A DNA stretch of 64,000 nucleotides from Solirubrobacterales bacterium (lineage in GTDB: Bacteria; Actinomycetota; Thermoleophilia; Solirubrobacterales; 70-9), in contig JADGPJ010000002.1 of assembly GCA_017882505.1 (NCBI GenBank), forward strand, positions 17,073 to 81,072, in the 5' to 3' direction. Made by a program: the position numbers and the translations under genes. Shown here one piece after another: positions 14,631-29,766 of the stretch (position 1 is the stretch's first letter; every line of letters starts with the position of its first letter). Below the pieces are notes generated by a model that searched no databases, was not told the DNA's origin, and saw only the letters and a list, made by a program, of their open reading frames with translations.

Positions 14631-14939
14631 TCAGGAGGAGCTGGTGACGACCGGTTCGATTTCTTCTTCGGCGACCGCTTCGGCTGCTTCTTCGGCTTCG
14701 GCTGCGGTCGTTTCGGCGGCTTCCGCGCTCGCGGCCTTGCCGGTCGCGACAGAGGATCGCTGGAGAGCGGTGCTAGCCGAGCCGGCGCTGGCGCTGAGTT
14801 GGAAGGTGAGAAGCGCGAAGAGCACCGCGAACAGGGAGAACGACCCGTAGATCACCGCCCGCGGGCCCGGGCGCCGGGATCGGGACGAGCGCGGAGTCTG
14901 GGACGGGCGTCGCGGGAGGTTCGGTTCTGGGTGGGACAT
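14631..14939 (-). CDS. Small single-TM protein, E/A-rich, C-terminal EPVVTSSS (protein A)
   Basis: RRPGPRAVIYGSFSLFAVLFALLTFQLS...EPVVTSSS; homologous N-terminus to ORF 18136..18426. Confidence 0.75.
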   Translation of the reverse strand: MSHPEPNLPRRPSQTPRSSRSRRPGPRAVIYGSFSLFAVLFALLTFQLSASAGSASTALQRSSVATGKAASAEAAETTAAEAEEAAEAVAEEEIEPVVTSSS

Positions 14940-15030
14940 CGGGCTCCTTCGGGGTAGCGGTACCCCCGCAGGGTGAGAGCGGTGGATAACACCGGCCTGA
15001 AGCCCGTGTGAGAGTGCTCTGAGAATCGAA

Positions 15031-15074
15031 GAGCTCGCACTCTCGCCCCAGCAGACGGGGAAAAGTGCGAGCTC
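15031..15074. terminator. Inverted repeat between ferredoxin and protein A genes
   Basis: GAGCTCGCACT...CCCC-agcagac-GGGG...AGTGCGAGCTC, perfect 11-bp outer arms. Confidence 0.55.
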
Positions 15075-15086
15075 GAGCGGGCGGGC

Positions 15087-15293
15087 TCAGGGGAAAACCG
15101 CCTCCCCCGTCTCATCGTCGACGACGGAGATCGCCACCGCCGGACAGGACTCGGCCGCCTTCAAGATCAGCTCCGGCGGTCCGCTGCCGATCACCACGGC
15201 TACGTCCTCGAGCTGGAACACCTCCGGGGCCACCTCGACGCAGTCGCCGTGGGCGCTGCACTCGTACGGGTCCACCACTGGGACGTAGGTCAT
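15087..15293 (-). CDS. Single-cluster ferredoxin
   Basis: PYECSAHGDCVEVAPEVFQLED...AAESCPAVAISV. Confidence 0.92.
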   Translation of the reverse strand: MTYVPVVDPYECSAHGDCVEVAPEVFQLEDVAVVIGSGPPELILKAAESCPAVAISVVDDETGEAVFP

Positions 15294-16477
15294 GCCACTT
15301 CCTCCTTTGGTTCGGGGGCAAACCTGTCGCTGCCCTCTATGCGCCTACGCAAGGCGGGGATCGAGCGCGGCCGGCCGACCGCCAGGCCGGCGACGGGAAC
15401 GCCACTGCGGGTGAAGAGCGCCTCGAAGTCGCGCTCGGCGGGATCGCCGTCGAGGACGACGGCGTCGCCGAGGTGGGGATGCCCCACGCACTGGATCCGC
15501 ATCCCGTACTGGTCGCTCCAGAAGCTCGGCAGCGGCGGCGTGCCCGGGTACTCGCCGATCATCGCCTTTGCCGCTGCGGCGCCCTGCCAGGCGGCGGCGT
15601 CCCAGTGCTCGGTGCGGGAGTGGACGCCGAAGCGCGGGTCGAAGGGGACGCAGGCGTCGCCGGCGGCGAAGACGTCGGGCAGGCCGGTACGACCGCAGGT
15701 GTCGACGTGGACGCCGCCCTCGTCGAGGCCGCTTCCCCGCAGCCACCGGGTCGCGGGGGCGGTGCCGACGCCGACGACGACCGCGTCGCACTCGAACCTG
15801 CGGCCGTCGGCGAGGATCAGCTCCTCCACCCTCTCGCCGCCGCGGGCGCTCTCCAGCATCGCGCCGGTGATCACCCGCACGCCCTCTTCGAGATGGAGAT
15901 CGGCGAACCAGCGCCCGAGGTGGGCGCCGACGATCGGCTCGAGCGGCGTATCGAGCGCCTCGATGATCGTCACCTCGACGCCGAGGTGACGCGCGGTCGC
16001 CGCCACCTCCTGGCCGATGAAGCCGGCACCGACGATCGCCAGGCGAGCGCCCGGCACCAGTTCGGCCCGCAACCGCCGGGCGTCGGCCAGGGTCCGCAGC
16101 GCATGGACGTTGGCGTGGTCGAGGAAGGGAAGCCGTCGCGGCCCGCTGCCGGTGGCGATCAGCAGCTTCCCGTATTCGAGCGCCACGCCGCAGTCGAGGA
16201 GGACCGTCCGCGCCTGCGGATCGAGCGCCTCGGCACGGACGCCGAGCAGGAGCTCGATTCCTTTCTCCTCATACCACCAGGCCGGCCGGTAGGAGACCGA
16301 CTCGTCCTCGGCGCCGCCCGCCAGCACCTGCTTCGACAACGGCGGCCGGTCGTAGGGCGGGTCGGGCTCGGCGCAGACGATGCGAATCGGTGCCTCGTAG
16401 CCGCGGCGACGGAGGGTCTCGGCGGCGCGCTGCGCCGCCAGGCCCCCGCCCACCATCACCACACCAGGGTCTTTCAT
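15290..16477 (-). CDS. NAD(P)/FAD-dependent oxidoreductase (ferredoxin reductase type)
   Basis: MKDPGVVMVGGGLAAQRAAETLRRRGYEAPIRIVCAEPDPPYDRPPLSK; second Rossmann LAIVGAGFIGQEVAATARHLG; overlaps both neighbours. Confidence 0.92.
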   Translation of the reverse strand: MKDPGVVMVGGGLAAQRAAETLRRRGYEAPIRIVCAEPDPPYDRPPLSKQVLAGGAEDESVSYRPAWWYEEKGIELLLGVRAEALDPQARTVLLDCGVALEYGKLLIATGSGPRRLPFLDHANVHALRTLADARRLRAELVPGARLAIVGAGFIGQEVAATARHLGVEVTIIEALDTPLEPIVGAHLGRWFADLHLEEGVRVITGAMLESARGGERVEELILADGRRFECDAVVVGVGTAPATRWLRGSGLDEGGVHVDTCGRTGLPDVFAAGDACVPFDPRFGVHSRTEHWDAAAWQGAAAAKAMIGEYPGTPPLPSFWSDQYGMRIQCVGHPHLGDAVVLDGDPAERDFEALFTRSGVPVAGLAVGRPRSIPALRRRIEGSDRFAPEPKEEVA

Positions 16478-17124
16478 CACGCCTCCTCTAGGACTGGGGT
16501 TCGGGAAATCGTCCGGCTGCGTTCTAGACCGGCAGGGTGGGGGTGCTTCGGGCGAGCCTCCTTGGCACGTTTCTTGGCCCGCTCCGAGAGCACCCGGTAG
16601 ACGAGCAGCCCGCCGATCAGCGGCGCCGTCAGCACCACCCACCACCTGAACCAGACGGCGGAGGCATCGGTGCCGGCGCCGAGCGCGTGGACCAGGCCCA
16701 GGACGTAGACCAGGATCGTCGCCCGGTGGGCCTTGCGCCAGAGCTTCGGCCCGACCCGTTTGCGGACGTAGAAGCTGAGGCCGAGCAGGGCGGCGAGGTA
16801 GCCGCCGATGACGCCGAGGCCGGTGAAGGCGGTGCGGAAGCTCATCGCGAAGGGCACGGTCACCCCGGCGACGCCCGGGTGCAGCCAGGGGTCGCCGAGC
16901 AGGGTGATGCCGTGGATCGCGATCGCGACCAAGCCGGCGAGCGCCGTCTGCTCGTGGATCGCCATCAGCTTGCGCGAGAGGCCGGGCCGGCGCATGACCT
17001 TGCCGGCCATGGCGAGACCGAGGCCGACCGAGACCGTGACCAGGACCAGCGCGACGAGCCCCGAGGCCCGGCTCGCCAGCCACCAGCCGTGGCTTTGGAG
17101 GGTGGTCGAGACAGCCGCGATCAT
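16477..17124 (-). CDS. Ferric reductase-like transmembrane (heme b) protein
   Basis: Six hydrophobic segments with conserved His (KLMAIHEQTALAGL, AIAIHGITLLGD, RKAHRATILVYVLGLVHALGAG). Confidence 0.85.
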   Translation of the reverse strand: MIAAVSTTLQSHGWWLASRASGLVALVLVTVSVGLGLAMAGKVMRRPGLSRKLMAIHEQTALAGLVAIAIHGITLLGDPWLHPGVAGVTVPFAMSFRTAFTGLGVIGGYLAALLGLSFYVRKRVGPKLWRKAHRATILVYVLGLVHALGAGTDASAVWFRWWVVLTAPLIGGLLVYRVLSERAKKRAKEARPKHPHPAGLERSRTISRTPVLEEA

Positions 17125-18110
17125 CAATGGGCTCCTTCCAGGGTCGGGATCTGCGGCAAGCGAATGCGGGGCGCGGCGGCAAGGGGGCCGACGAGCTCGA
17201 TCCGGCCGCCGTCGTGGACCAGCAGCCCGCCACGGTCGGCGAGCAGCCGGCGGCCACCCTCGGGACCGGAGAGCAGCGCCGCCTTTGAGAGGGTCTCCGC
17301 CTCGACCGCGGTGTCGCCGAGCGCCGTGGCACCGACAAGGCCGGTCCAGGCCGGCTCGCCGGTCGCGGGGTCGAGCAGGTGGTGGGCGAAGCGGCCGTCG
17401 GCGTCGCGCCAGATGCGGACGTTGAGGCCGGAGGTGGCGACGCCGCCGGAACCGAGCCGCAGGACGTGGGCGCGCTCACCCGTCTGCGGATGTTCGACGA
17501 AGACCTCATAGGGATGGACGAGGGCGTCGGCGCCGCCGATCCGGATGTCGCCGCCGCAGTCGACTATGAAGCGCGAGTAACCCCGGAGGCTGATCGCGAT
17601 CAGGTCGGCGGCCAGGCCCTTGCCGGTGCCGCCGGTATCGAAGCGAAGACCGGGCGGGCGCACGATCTCGCCGGCCTCTTCGTCGATCTCGAAGCCGCGC
17701 CAGCGCTGCTCGGGGCTCGGGGACGCGGCCCGCCGCGGCGGCGCCTCGGCCAGCGCCTCGTCCAGCGGCGCCCCGGTCATCCCAGCCCGTGAGGACTGAT
17801 AGCCGGCGCCCTCGATCTCCCGCAGCAGGGTCGGGTCGACCAGACCGCCGCTGTGCTCGGCGGCCTCGAGGCCGGCCTTCACCGCTCGGCGCAGCAGCGG
17901 CGAGGCGGGGACGCGCTCGCGCGGGTCCTCGTTGAAGGCGCAGAGCTCGCTGCGGGGTTTGAAGCGCGACAGCGCGAGGTCGAAATCGAAGATGAACCGC
18001 CTCGCCATCTCGGCCGCCTCGGCGGCCGGGGCCATCTCCGGCCCGGGCTCGCCGATCAGCAGCCGGACGTGGCTGCCCATCGCATCGAAGGTGATGTCGT
18101 GTTCGCTCAT
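17124..18110 (-). CDS. apbE: FAD:protein FMN transferase (ApbE family)
   Basis: ITFDAMGSHVRLLI; RFDTGGTGKGLAADLIA; FIVDCGGDIRIGG; VATSGLNVRIWRDADGRFAHHLLDPATGEPAWTGLVGATALG. Confidence 0.92.
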   Translation of the reverse strand: MSEHDITFDAMGSHVRLLIGEPGPEMAPAAEAAEMARRFIFDFDLALSRFKPRSELCAFNEDPRERVPASPLLRRAVKAGLEAAEHSGGLVDPTLLREIEGAGYQSSRAGMTGAPLDEALAEAPPRRAASPSPEQRWRGFEIDEEAGEIVRPPGLRFDTGGTGKGLAADLIAISLRGYSRFIVDCGGDIRIGGADALVHPYEVFVEHPQTGERAHVLRLGSGGVATSGLNVRIWRDADGRFAHHLLDPATGEPAWTGLVGATALGDTAVEAETLSKAALLSGPEGGRRLLADRGGLLVHDGGRIELVGPLAAAPRIRLPQIPTLEGAH

Positions 18111-18135
18111 GTGAGTATCCGTTTGGTAGTGGGGC

Positions 18136-18426
18136 TCAGGAGGCGCTGGTCGTGACCGGTTCGGCTCCGTAGGAGGAGCTGGACGCCGGACCGCTGACGA
18201 TGCTGTTCTTGCCGGGGGTCGGGACGACGGTGGTGACGATGCGGCGTTTGATCACCTTCCGTACCTGCACCGGTCCCGTCGCCGTCGCCGTCGATCCGCT
18301 CAGCGAGGGGTCGGCGCCGATGCTCAGCTGGTAGGTGAGCAGGGCGAAGAGCACTCCGAAGAGGGCGACCGAGCCCCAGAGAACCGCTCCGGGGCCAGGT
18401 CGCCGGTTGCGGCGAGCGTCAGTCAT
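18136..18426 (-). CDS. Small single-TM protein ending EPVTTSAS (protein B)
   Basis: RRPGPGAVLWGSVALFGVLFALLTYQLS...AEPVTTSAS; 8-nt overlap with upstream gene. Confidence 0.8.
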   Translation of the reverse strand: MTDARRNRRPGPGAVLWGSVALFGVLFALLTYQLSIGADPSLSGSTATATGPVQVRKVIKRRIVTTVVPTPGKNSIVSGPASSSSYGAEPVTTSAS

Positions 18427-19081
18427 TGCGGCCGCCCTTGGACTCGTGCTCGCCACCGCCACCTGCGCCACCGCCGCTGGACGCGGTCGTGACCGGGGTG
18501 CTGCCGCCACCGGATGATCCGGAGCCGGCGCTGGCGCCACTGGTGTGGGTTACGACCGGGGTGCTGTGTGAGCCGCTGCCCGAGCCGGCCTTGGTGCCGG
18601 AGCCGCTGGTGTGGGTGACCACCGGCGTGCTGTGGGAGCCGCTGCTGCCCGAGCCGGCCTTCGTGCCCGTGGCGGAGCCGCTGGTGTGGGTGACCACCGG
18701 CTGCGTGGCCGACCCGGAGCCGGAGCTGACGGGCGCCGAGTAGGAGCCGCTGGTCGAAGTCGTGACCGGGGTCGACGATGAAGAGTAGGACGGGGTCGAG
18801 CCGCTCGAGGACGACCCGGTGGTGGCGCTGCCGTAAGCGCTCCCAGCGGAACCGCCGGCACCTGCCATCGCCCCTCCCCCGGTCCCGGTTGCGGCGGGAT
18901 GCTTGGGCTTGGCGTGCTTGGTCACGTGGATCGTCCTGCGGATCACTTTGGTGCGGACAAGCGGTTTGGCGGCGACCGTCGCGCTCGACTGGCTCTGGCC
19001 GTTGCTCAGCGCCAGGCCGGCGAGTCCTCCTAGGCCGACGATGGTTGCTGCGGCAGCGATGCGGGTTCTCAGTCTGTTCAC
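18419..19081 (-). CDS. Secreted/membrane-anchored Ser/Thr/Gly repeat protein with five P-V-[VT]-T-x-[ST]-S motifs (protein C)
   Basis: GTG start behind GAGGAG RBS; TM VGLGGLAGLALS; TPVTTSTSGS, QPVVTHTSGSATG, TPVVTHTSGSGT, TPVVTHTSGASAG, TPVTTASSGGG. Confidence 0.8.
   Translation of the reverse strand: MNRLRTRIAAAATIVGLGGLAGLALSNGQSQSSATVAAKPLVRTKVIRRTIHVTKHAKPKHPAATGTGGGAMAGAGGSAGSAYGSATTGSSSSGSTPSYSSSSTPVTTSTSGSYSAPVSSGSGSATQPVVTHTSGSATGTKAGSGSSGSHSTPVVTHTSGSGTKAGSGSGSHSTPVVTHTSGASAGSGSSGGGSTPVTTASSGGGAGGGGEHESKGGRND
18541..18700. repeat. Degenerate tandem repeat inside protein C gene
   Basis: tggtgtggg-t-[t/g]a-[c/g].. units beginning at 18541, 18607 and 18682 (spacing 66 and 75 nt) encoding PVVTHTSG. 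Confidence 0.75.
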
Positions 19082-19220: not shown

Positions 19221-19946
<726 letters not shown>

Positions 19947-19981: not shown

Positions 19982-21310
19982 GTGCTGCTGCTGGCGCTGA
20001 TCGCGCTCGGCGTGCCGCTGGCGCTGAGCCTGCGCGACCGGGTGGGCTCGGAGGTGCGCAGCCAGGCGCTCAGCCAGGCACAGGTGGTGGCGACTTCGGC
20101 GGCGGAGCTGGTCGAACCGGCGCGCACCGGCGTGCTCAACCGGCTGGTGCGACGCTCGGCGGAAAGCGTCCGCGGCCGGGTCATCGTGGTCGACTCGAAC
20201 GGCCGCCTGCTTGCCGACTCGGCGGGGGAGAACGTCGGGCGCAGCTACGCCGACCGCCCGGAGATGAAGGCGGCGCTGCGTGGCCACACCGAGCAGATCA
20301 CCCGCAACAGCGAGACCCTCGGCACCGAAATCCTCGCCACCGCCGTCCCCGTCCTCGAGCACACCAAGCCCCACGGGGCGGTGCGGATCACCCAGAGCGT
20401 CGATGCGGTCAACCGGGCGGTGCGGACCTCGATTCTCGACGTCGCGGCGCTGGCGGCGATCGTCCTCGCCCTGGGGATGATCGCGGGCGCCCTGATCGCC
20501 GCGCAGATCGCCCGACCGATCCGGCGACTGGACCGGGCCGCGCGGCGGGTCGCGGACGGTGACCTCGACGCCACGGTGGCCGTCGAGGGGAGCACCGAGC
20601 AGCGCTCCCTGGCGCGGACCTTCAACGAGATGACCCTTCGCGTCAAACGACTGCTGCGGGTGCAGCAGGACTTCGTCGCCGACGCCTCGCACCAGCTGCG
20701 CACGCCGCTGACCGGTTTGCGACTGCGGCTGGAGGGACTGGGAGAGCGCTTCCGCGGCAACCGAGAGGTCGACGCGGAGGTCGGGGCGGCGATGCGCGAG
20801 ATCGACCGGCTCTCGTCGATCGTCGACGAGCTGCTGATCCTCAGCCGCGCCGGCGAGCACGAACTTCCCGGCGAGGAGCTCGACCTCGCCGCGGCGAGCC
20901 ACCGCGCCGGCGAGCGCTGGCGGGCGACCGCCGCCGAGCGCGAGATCGAGCTCGAGGTGCGGGGCGTTGACGAGGGTGCCGTGGGATGGTGCGCCGGGCC
21001 GGACCTGGACCGTTCGATCGATGCGTTGGTCGAGAACGCGTTGCTCTACTCGCCGGCCGGGTCGACCGTGACGATCGCCTTCGGCCCCGGACGGATCGAG
21101 GTCCTCGACCGCGGCCCCGGCCTCGCCCCCGGCGAGGAGAACGCGGTCTTCGAGCGCTTCAGCCGCGGCAGTGCCGGCCAGCGCGGCCCCAGCGGGACCG
21201 GGCTCGGGCTGCCGATCGCGCGGGAGCTGACGCGCCAGTGGGGTGGCGACGTGCAGCTCTTCAACCGCGACGGCGGTGGCCTGCGCGCCATCATTGAGGT
21301 GCGCCAATGA
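19982..21310 (+). CDS. HAMP-containing sensor histidine kinase (start uncertain)
   Basis: DASHQLRTPLTGLRLRLEGLGERF; ALVENALLYSPAGSTV; GPSGTGLGLPIARELTRQWGGDV. Confidence 0.95.
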   Translation: MLLLALIALGVPLALSLRDRVGSEVRSQALSQAQVVATSAAELVEPARTGVLNRLVRRSAESVRGRVIVVDSNGRLLADSAGENVGRSYADRPEMKAALRGHTEQITRNSETLGTEILATAVPVLEHTKPHGAVRITQSVDAVNRAVRTSILDVAALAAIVLALGMIAGALIAAQIARPIRRLDRAARRVADGDLDATVAVEGSTEQRSLARTFNEMTLRVKRLLRVQQDFVADASHQLRTPLTGLRLRLEGLGERFRGNREVDAEVGAAMREIDRLSSIVDELLILSRAGEHELPGEELDLAAASHRAGERWRATAAEREIELEVRGVDEGAVGWCAGPDLDRSIDALVENALLYSPAGSTVTIAFGPGRIEVLDRGPGLAPGEENAVFERFSRGSAGQRGPSGTGLGLPIARELTRQWGGDVQLFNRDGGGLRAIIEVRQ

Positions 21311-21669
21311 GTCTTCCCGCCACCGCCAAGTGGATCGGACTGGCCCTGCTCGGGCTGGCGATCGCGGCCGCGGTCGCGATCGCGGCCACCAACCTCGTCA
21401 GCCAGCAGATCGGAATCGCTTCCGAGTCGATCTCCGCCGGCGACGCGCTGGCGCCCGCTGTCAGCGCGGCGAAAGGGGGCGGCGGCTCGACCGGCAACAG
21501 AGGGGAAAGCACCGGTCCAACGACGTCCGAAGAAACCACGACGACGACGCCAACTCAGCCGCCCACGACCGAATCAACGGAACCGAGTGTCCCCACCGAA
21601 TCGAGCGAACCACGTGACGAGCACGGCGGCAGCAGCAGCCACGGTGGCCACGAGAGTTCAGACGACTAA
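21307..21669 (+). CDS. Small single-TM, Ser/Thr/Glu/His-rich protein coupled to histidine kinase
   Basis: ATG overlaps kinase stop; TM WIGLALLGLAIAAAVAIAATNLV then TTSEETTTTTPTQPPTTESTEPS...DEHGGSSSHGGHESSDD. Confidence 0.7.
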   Translation: MSLPATAKWIGLALLGLAIAAAVAIAATNLVSQQIGIASESISAGDALAPAVSAAKGGGGSTGNRGESTGPTTSEETTTTTPTQPPTTESTEPSVPTESSEPRDEHGGSSSHGGHESSDD

Positions 21670-22229: not shown

Positions 22230-22502
22230 CTAGTCGTCGCGGATGGCGATCCCGCCGCCGCCGCCGCTCGCCCGGGTCACGATCGGGGCCCTGGCGGTCG
22301 CCCCGCTCTTGACCGCGACGGTCTGGCTTGCGGGCACCGCGGAGGCGCCGCTGGCGGTGGTGACGACGGACGCGGTGGTGCCGGCGCTCGTCTGCTGGGT
22401 CGCGGCGGGCACGCCAGGGTTGGACCCGAGTGCGGCACCGCCGAGGGCGCCGAGTCCCAGCACCGTCGCCGTCGCAAACACCTTCGCTCTTCGGTTGCTC
22501 AT
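22230..22502 (-). CDS. Small secreted/anchored protein with SVVTTASG and APIVTRASGG motifs (protein D; paralog of protein C N-terminus)
   Basis: MSNRRAKVFATATVLGLGALGGAALGSN...SVVTTASGAS...VKSGATARAPIVTRASGGGGGIAIRDD*. Confidence 0.7.
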   Translation of the reverse strand: MSNRRAKVFATATVLGLGALGGAALGSNPGVPAATQQTSAGTTASVVTTASGASAVPASQTVAVKSGATARAPIVTRASGGGGGIAIRDD

Positions 22503-22708: not shown

Positions 22709-23167
22709 TTAGCCCCCGCCGCCGCCCGGCGGGGGCGGATCGGTGGCGTAGAGCCTGGTGAGAGCGGCGACGAGCTGCGCCTGCTCGGACGAGGAGAGGC
22801 TGGCGGCAGGGTGGATCAACGTGTACTGCGTTGGCGGCATCTCGCCGCTGGAGACGTTCTCGACGACATCGCCGAGTTCGGGCTGGCCCCGGTTCCATTC
22901 GGAGAAGTTGAGAATGCCGCGACCGTCTTCGACGTCGTGCTGGACCAGCCAGGAGACGGGAGCGATGTTCGAATACCAGCGCCACTTGGTCAGGTTGCTG
23001 TGACAGTCGTAACAGGACTGCACGGCGAGCTGCCCCCCGGTGCCCGGAGGCCACTTTGCGGCCTGGGTCACGGGCGGGTTGGAGTGGTCACGCCCGTAGG
23101 GGACCAGCTGGATCAGGAGCAGGCCCGCGAGCCCGCCGAGAACCACGTACCTGAGTACTCGTCGCAT
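22709..23167 (-). CDS. Membrane-anchored c-type heme-binding domain protein
   Basis: N-terminal TM, SCYDCHSNLTKWRWYSNIAPVSWLVQHDVEDGRGILNFSEW typical of the Haem_bd family. Confidence 0.88.
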   Translation of the reverse strand: MRRVLRYVVLGGLAGLLLIQLVPYGRDHSNPPVTQAAKWPPGTGGQLAVQSCYDCHSNLTKWRWYSNIAPVSWLVQHDVEDGRGILNFSEWNRGQPELGDVVENVSSGEMPPTQYTLIHPAASLSSSEQAQLVAALTRLYATDPPPPGGGGG

Positions 23168-28646: not shown

Positions 28647-29766
28647 CTAGGAGGCCGAGGAGGCCGCCGTCTTGTTCAGGTAGTCGCGCACGAACTCGTC
28701 GAGGTCGCCGTCGAGCACCCGCTGCACGTCGCCGACCTCGTGCTCGGTGCGGTGGTCCTTGACCATCGTGTACGGGTGAAGGACGTAGCTGCGGATCTGC
28801 GAGCCCCAGGCGACGTCTTTGACCTCACCCCTCGCCCGCGCCATCTCCTCGGCGCGTTTGCGCTCCTCCAGCTCGATCAGCTTCGAGCGCAGGAACTGCA
28901 TCGCCACCGCCTTGTTCTGGGTCTGCGAGCGCTCGTTCTGGCACTGGACGACGGTGCCGGTCGGCAGGTGGGTGATCCGCACCGCCGAGTCGGTCTTGTT
29001 GACGTGCTGGCCGCCGGCGCCGGAAGCGCGGTAGGTGTCGATCCGGAGGTCGGCGTCGTCGACCTCGACCTCGACCCCGGCGTCGACCAGCGGGCCGACG
29101 TCGACCTGGGCGAAGCTGGTGTGGCGCCGCGAGGAGGAGTCGAAGGGGGAGATCCGGACCAGCCGGTGAACGCCTCGCTCGGCCGCGAAGAGGCCGTAGG
29201 CGTTCTCGCCGCGGGCGATGAAGGTCGCCGACTTGAGGCCGGCCTCCTCCCCCGGCGAGGCCTCCTTCATCTCGACCTCGAAGCCGCGCCGTTCGGACCA
29301 GCGCAGGTACATCCGCAGGAGGATCTCGGCCCAGTCCTGGGAGTCGGTCCCCCCCGCCCCCGCGTGAACGGTGACGACGGCGTCGCCGGCGTCGTACTCG
29401 CCGCTGAACAGGCGTCCCTCCTCGAGCTCGCCGAGGCGCCGCTCGGCTGAGCTCAGCTGCGAGCCCAGCTCGGCGGCGATCTCCTCGTCCTCCGCCGCCA
29501 TCTCCGCCAGGTCGGCGAGGTCGGCGACATCGGACTCGAGGCCGCGGAACAACTCCAGCCGGCGCTGCGCCCGTGCGTGCGCGGCGGAGGTGCGGGCGGC
29601 CGCCTCCTGGTCGTCCCAGAAGCCGGGCCGGCCCATCTCCTCCTCCAGGCGCGCCGCCTCGGTCTCTAGCGCAGCTGGGTCAAAGGTAGTCCGAGAGCAG
29701 GGACAGCTGCTCGCGGACGGCGGCCAGGCGCGGCGCTACGGATTCGGTAGGGGCGGCCTCGGCCAT
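28647..29766 (-). CDS. prfB: Peptide chain release factor 2 with programmed +1 frameshift
   Basis: MAEAAPTESVAPRLAAVREQLSLLSDYL-TGA then +1 frame DPAALETEAARLEEEMGRPGFWDD...GAGGQHVNKTDSAVRITHLPTG; CTT TGA C at 29679..29685. Confidence 0.95.

Follow-up and report, generated by a model that had tools for sequence, protein, structure and literature searches.

In a 64,000-nt stretch of a Solirubrobacterales genome (GenBank assembly GCA_017882505.1, contig JADGPJ010000002.1; the window), the gene for ApbE, a flavin adenine dinucleotide (FAD):protein flavin mononucleotide (FMN) transferase, belongs to a single tightly packed minus-strand operon. This operon also encodes the small anchored proteins C and B, a ferric-reductase-like membrane protein (FR), an FAD oxidoreductase and a ferredoxin; it is followed by a strong hairpin and then by the gene of A. 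The small proteins A, B, C and, further away, D share a short motif, which is conserved at the very C-terminus of proteins encoded upstream of apbE across the class Thermoleophilia. The most likely reading (probability about 0.72) is that these four proteins serve as ApbE substrates without a folded domain and convey electrons for FR on the outer side of the membrane.

The shared motif and its conservation upstream of apbE

A ends with PVVTSSS and B with PVTTSAS. Both contain the core [S/T]-x-x-[S/T] with the acceptor position last; there is no Gly-Ala in between and no Asp six residues ahead of the acceptor position. C contains five internal copies (PVTTSTSG once, PVVTHTSG three times and PVTTASSG once) and D contains one (PIVTRASG). 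The copies in C are followed by Gly; therefore, a free carboxylate is not required for the motif. A back-translated pattern of the internal form has nine matches in the whole genome (the window's own assembly, 2.63 Mb, 93% complete), six of which lie within C and D. An SGxx register for the motif of C was rejected, since only one copy in the window reads SGAS and T-x-x-S is common to all four proteins. Within the set of 68 genes called in the window, [ST]xxS ends are confined to A, B and a 330-residue protein (28647–29636, minus strand). The latter ends with KTAASSAS and reflects either chance or a further substrate.

The modified residue of known ApbE substrates is the last one of the motif [S/T]GA[S/T] (PMC8238504, PMC12052999). 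The tails resemble a flavinylation site because their register and final Ser match this known site and a minority of them literally end with SGAS. Seven residues suffice for a flavin-tag, which works best at N- or C-termini, and replacement of the Asp in the seven-residue motif by Ala reportedly has minor effects only (PMC12052999). Residues Thr93 and Ser96 of B are invariant across eight B-type proteins, and Ser96 is the predicted FMN acceptor. A sorting signal of the LPXTG or exosortase type was set aside, since neither a transmembrane (TM) segment nor a basic patch is found beyond the tail.

The N-terminus of B is strongly basic and probably cytosolic by the positive-inside rule; the tails look extracytosolic. 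Lipoprotein variants of the tail proteins should be located outside as well. B and C have in common a basic strand after the membrane (VRKVIKRRIVTTVVP in B, VRTKVIRRTIHVTKH in C), which may dock them to FR or to the membrane.

Neighbourhoods of apbE were gathered from the genus up to the phylum. The tail count comprises 120 distinct loci, nearly all from Thermoleophilia, a class of soil and water bacteria; 80 of these loci have a complete one- or two-TM protein immediately upstream of apbE. A C-terminal [ST]-x-x-S is present in 63 of these 80 proteins versus 31 of 658 others in the same loci (Fisher p 2e-51; p-values given here overstate independence because the loci are related by shared ancestry). 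Shuffling of the last 25 residues yields an expectation of 6 in 80. The last residue is Ser in 63 of 80 proteins and position −3 is Thr or Ser in 65. Information content is highest at these two positions (3.0 and 2.4 bits, respectively), and the positions between them are loose. As a control, apbE loci of the FMN_bind type and of the Coriobacteriia-like type were compared; their upstream neighbours do not have the tail.

Typically, the upstream protein has one TM segment and a low-complexity linker before the tail. Endings include TTSQS, VTSQS, TTSAS, VTSSS, VTRTS, RSGAS, SSGAS, TSGGS, STGGS and TSKQS. Across the loci the tails align and the linkers do not. The tail is found on three unlike scaffolds, namely the low-complexity linker, coiled-coil-like proteins (L162, L174 and L184) and lipoproteins (L160, L161 and L173). 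In several proteins without the exact tag, the motif lies slightly ahead of the end (C-terminal VQTATSGAP, VASSGGSKP and TTRVSG) and thereby resembles the copies in C. Loci of this kind are also present in a cultured relative, Solirubrobacter soli (L114 and L159). Similar tails occur outside the class (VTTTHSS, VTTSHAS, VSQGS, QTQGS and TTGGSHP).

In L160, L161, L173, L176 and L179, the gene that overlaps apbE or lies immediately ahead of it encodes a lipoprotein with the tail and a small Gly-rich domain. No FR gene is present within the short stretch fetched for these loci, which perhaps represent a different sub-system. Two Thermoleophilia-like apbE loci (L120 and L124) are on CAMCUD01 contigs titled 'Bifidobacterium breve', a record label that is probably wrong.

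In a class sample of 299 genomes, ApbE is present in 165 and FMN_bind in 35, all of which have ApbE. Thus, FMN_bind is missing from 130 of the 165 apbE genomes. For the phylum, 122 of 248 sampled genomes have ApbE and 78 have FMN_bind. A profile of the B anchor (TM segment plus G-x-D-P-x-L; clear match at E below 1e-6) has clear matches in 44 of the 299 class genomes, and all 44 have apbE (base rate 55%; hypergeometric p 2e-13). At least 44 of 65 clear matches are no more than 6 kb away from a listed apbE. The window's genome has four matches, all in its three apbE clusters; the corresponding tails are PVTTSAS and PVVTSSS (both in the window), PVTTSQS and IVSRTSPAPPP.

An earlier note on this DNA had proposed A, B and C as substrates or docking partners of ApbE and had overlooked the motif of A, B, C and D together with its class-wide C-terminal conservation upstream of apbE. 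The substrate proposal is strongly supported at the sequence level, with a specific predicted site.

ApbE, FR and the proposed electron path

The ApbE of the window scores 135 bits against PF02424 (E-value 4e-39; cut-off 25.6 bits). Its AlphaFold2 model has high confidence (predicted local distance difference test, pLDDT, 94; predicted template modelling score, pTM, 0.91) and the top 39 folds in the PDB all belong to the ApbE family (best 1vrm, 2.7e-21). Compared to the catalytic residues Ser241, His257 and Asp285 of the Vibrio cholerae enzyme, Ser227 and His243/244 are kept, Asp285 is replaced by Glu272 and the usual Thr by Lys276. Glu272 and Lys276 are present in 89 of 92 close relatives, in contrast to Asp272 and Thr276 in 16 of 17 FMN_bind-type actinobacterial ApbEs. 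The close relatives have His243 as an additional invariant residue, and the canonical His position is Gln in 8 of 92. Some tail-type loci have Thr276, Asp272 or Asn272. In a quick ApbE tree, the labels 'tail' and 'FMN_bind' need only three changes, and two of the 12 FMN labels are false (L068, tag protein; L093, FR tail). Judged from these sequences, each kind of active site tends to accompany one type of substrate, albeit imperfectly.

An export signal is typical of ApbE, though not universal. In the window ApbE and its group, a hydropathy scan found no N-terminal TM segment or signal peptide, a point that the earlier note did not address. Modification may take place before export, or there may be a different way to the outside. 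A signal peptide is likewise missing from the ApbEs of FMN_bind-type actinobacterial clusters (L193–L195, L275–L279 and L283–L286), whose substrates seem to be anchored on the outside; attachment of the flavin ahead of export may be a general trait of the phylum.

FR reaches 28.6 bits with the Pfam family Ferric_reduct (cut-off 28). Its histidine pairs His58/His72 and His134/His147 are invariant in 23 sequences. The best folds for its helical model are SpNOX, STEAP1 and cytochrome b561, with weak E-values. FR is predicted to bind heme and to transfer electrons. In 63 well-covered apbE loci, FR is near apbE in 54, a regulator and kinase pair in 41, the oxidoreductase and ferredoxin in 12 and VIT1 in four. 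FR is directly followed by ftsE in two of the closest relatives. From these counts, the stable core consists of the tail protein, ApbE and FR. The oxidoreductase and ferredoxin form an optional module, because of their presence in 12 loci and the FR–ftsE order in the two relatives, and are one of several possible donors. Accordingly, the earlier overall interpretation holds in part. Its substrate idea is right in outline and is narrowed to a single residue; its linear route from NAD(P)H via FAD reductase and ferredoxin to the hemes is weakened by the scarcity of the pair and by the FR–ftsE order. A VIT1-like gene adjoins FR in L036, L037, L064 and L066, which matches the iron-uptake link of MsrQ-like clusters (PMC8238504).

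In the proposed mechanism, B and A would each consist of an anchor in the membrane, a flexible linker outside the cytosol and the C-terminal tag [S/T]-x-x-S-COOH, and ApbE would transfer FMN from FAD onto the last Ser of this tag. C and D would have the same tag inside a flexible chain, five times in the case of C, and hold one or several FMNs. FR would move electrons via two b hemes across the membrane to the tethered flavins, and these would pass them on to an acceptor outside the cytosol. In loci that encode the FAD oxidoreductase and ferredoxin, this pair would supply FR with electrons from NAD(P)H; in the other loci, quinol or a different cytosolic donor would do so. A two-component system would control the operon.

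A far-reaching form of this proposal is tentative and rather doubtful as a whole. It assumes a class-wide system with flavins on disordered, fold-less tails, in which B and A are single-FMN swinging arms and C is a multi-FMN 'wire', all loaded in the cytosol by a distinct Glu/Lys ApbE subfamily (possibly with replacement of the metal site) and exported in flavinylated form.

Known systems and alternative explanations

The system is a variant of the electron-transfer clusters of the ApbE/MsrQ-like type. Its proposed substrate class appears to be new, since literature searches in the papers available returned no description of such tails. In the actinobacterial MsrQ-like clusters (Meheust et al. 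2021, PMC8238504), apbE likewise adjoins a PF01794 membrane heme protein and sometimes a VIT1-like gene. These clusters typically include a gene for an FMN-binding domain and, in many cases, a fused NAD-binding domain. Here, on the other hand, the proposed substrate does not contain FMN_bind, FR is a short protein and ApbE belongs to a subfamily with a Glu/Lys active site. Substrates of the FMN_bind/NqrC/RnfG type (PF04205) are similarly anchored outside the cytosol and have a linker and an ApbE motif ending with Ser/Thr. Unlike these, A–D have no folded domain; A and B end with the motif itself, and C repeats it along a chain that looks disordered.

FMN_red proteins are similar in motif placement: ApbE motifs were predicted on their unstructured C-terminal extension and flavinylation there was confirmed (Huang et al. 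2024, PMC11334425). Their tail folds back onto a flavin-binding domain, which is not present here. Multi-flavinylated proteins (PMC8238504, PMC10339131) resemble C in that several FMN sites are predicted within a single extracytosolic chain, but they are strings of folded FMN-bind domains. The engineered flavin-tag (Tong et al. 2021, cited in PMC12052999) resembles the tail in that ApbE needs no more than a short peptide at a terminus; this tag is artificial and has the canonical sequence D-x-x-[S/T]-G-A-[S/T]. If the substrate reading is true, the tails are natural counterparts of this tag and a flavin can act as an electron carrier without a surrounding protein fold.

A known flavinylated domain as explanation for apbE was rejected, since searches of the whole 93%-complete assembly for FMN_bind and DUF2271 were empty (DUF3570, NqrB/RnfD and Flavodoxin_4 were not searched). 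The claim that the window has no FMN_bind substrate thus extends to the assembly. Approximately 4% of genomes with flavinylation have apbE and no known substrate (Meheust et al., PMC8238504). A four-residue tail would escape domain searches; in Thermoleophilia it would account for many of the apbE genomes without FMN_bind, and it may solve part of the 'orphan apbE' problem.

Several observations weigh against A–D as ApbE substrates. Their flavinylation is a prediction from sequence. The Asp of the published motif is missing and its Gly/Ala are mostly replaced. The exact tag is missing in 17 of 80 upstream neighbours, the gene calls derive from the author's own codon-usage script, and the p-values carry no correction for the relatedness of the loci. 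Furthermore, characterised ApbEs have Asp (and Thr) where the active site here has Glu/Lys, and an enzyme without signal peptide is at odds with extracytosolic-looking tails.

Among the alternatives, the one that deserves most attention, albeit unlikely, is that the tail is a peptide recognised by ApbE, by FR or by a factor of export or quality control, and that FMN is attached elsewhere in B or C or to another protein. The strong fixation of only two tail positions, the many other Ser/Thr in the linkers and the absence of the canonical Asp fit such a peptide; a register and final Ser equal to the known acceptor site, the tails reading SGAS and the Gly after the motif in C do not. A, B and C may also be docking partners of ApbE. 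The altered active site raises the less probable alternative that this ApbE homologue is no longer an FMN transferase and either hydrolyses FAD to FMN and AMP or performs other nucleotidyl chemistry; the small proteins would then belong to FR as subunits or help in its assembly. The aligned Glu272 and Lys276, the Gln at the canonical His position of some relatives and the absence of a signal peptide are in line with this, but Ser227 and one His (243) are kept, the fold is intact and the same kind of tails also accompany ApbEs with Thr276. Finally, the motifs could be by-products of Ser/Thr-rich low-complexity sequence in cell-wall spacer or adhesion-like proteins that share the operon. Although the linkers are of low complexity and vary between lineages, this very improbable explanation is already disfavoured by the shuffled tails, by Glu/Ala-rich tails that likewise end with TTSQS or LVTSQS and by the co-occurrence of the B anchor with apbE in 44 of 44 genomes.

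Gene layout and neighbouring features

Re-derived coordinates agree with the reading frames, strands, overlaps and the 25-nt gap between B and ApbE given in the earlier note. C overlaps B; ApbE and FR overlap at 17124, FR and the oxidoreductase at 16477, and the oxidoreductase and ferredoxin at 15290–15293. The inverted repeat reported before A is indeed a strong hairpin (−38.8 kcal/mol for a 91-nt stretch, z −3.9), at which no T-run terminator was called. A, located beyond it, may be a separate transcript.

Features of the window around apbE.
Feature	Position	Strand	Remarks
A, B-like one-TM protein	14631–14939	−	C-terminal tag PVVTSSS (14634–14654); B-anchor profile match 1.4e-6
Strong hairpin between ferredoxin and A	15031–15074	−	terminator or processing site
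Ferredoxin (Fer4_13)	15087–15293	−	CxxHxxC...CP; Pfam and sequence
FAD/NAD(P) oxidoreductase, ferredoxin-reductase type	15290–16477	−	Pyr_redox_2 and Reductase_C
FR, ferric-reductase-like membrane protein	16477–17127	−	four invariant His (58, 72, 134, 147)
ApbE (FAD:protein FMN transferase)	17124–18110	−	no signal peptide; H243/H244, E272, K276
B, one-TM protein	18136–18426	−	juxtamembrane GADPSL; basic strand VRKVIKRRIVTTVVP; C-terminal tag PVTTSAS (18139–18159)
C, anchored Ser/Thr/Gly-rich protein	18419–19081	−	basic strand KPLVRTKVIRRTIHVTKHAKPKHP; C-terminus RND
C motifs, PV[VT]Tx[TAS]SG, five internal copies	P codons start at 18769, 18700, 18625, 18559, 18496	−	
Response regulator, divergent from C	19221–19946	+	
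Sensor histidine kinase, sCache-type sensor	19982–21310	+	
E, anchored small protein with SSDD end	21307–21669	+	
D, C-like anchored protein	22230–22502	−	one PIVTRASG motif (22266–22286)
Anchored Haem_bd (PF14376) protein	22709–23167	−	homologue near L033 cluster

For A, B, C and D, Pfam (including FMN_bind, PF04205) gave no reliable match and NCBIfam gave none. In a plasmid collection, only distant ApbEs (<60% identity) were found. Among the C-, D- and E-type proteins of the window and about 60 relatives, many C-type and E-type neighbours have an acidic C-terminus (DD, DN or ND). By eye, proteins resembling E are encoded inside apbE operons of other genomes (L092, L094, L097 and L114). The Haem_bd protein is, by its neighbourhood alone, a possible extracytosolic partner or electron acceptor.

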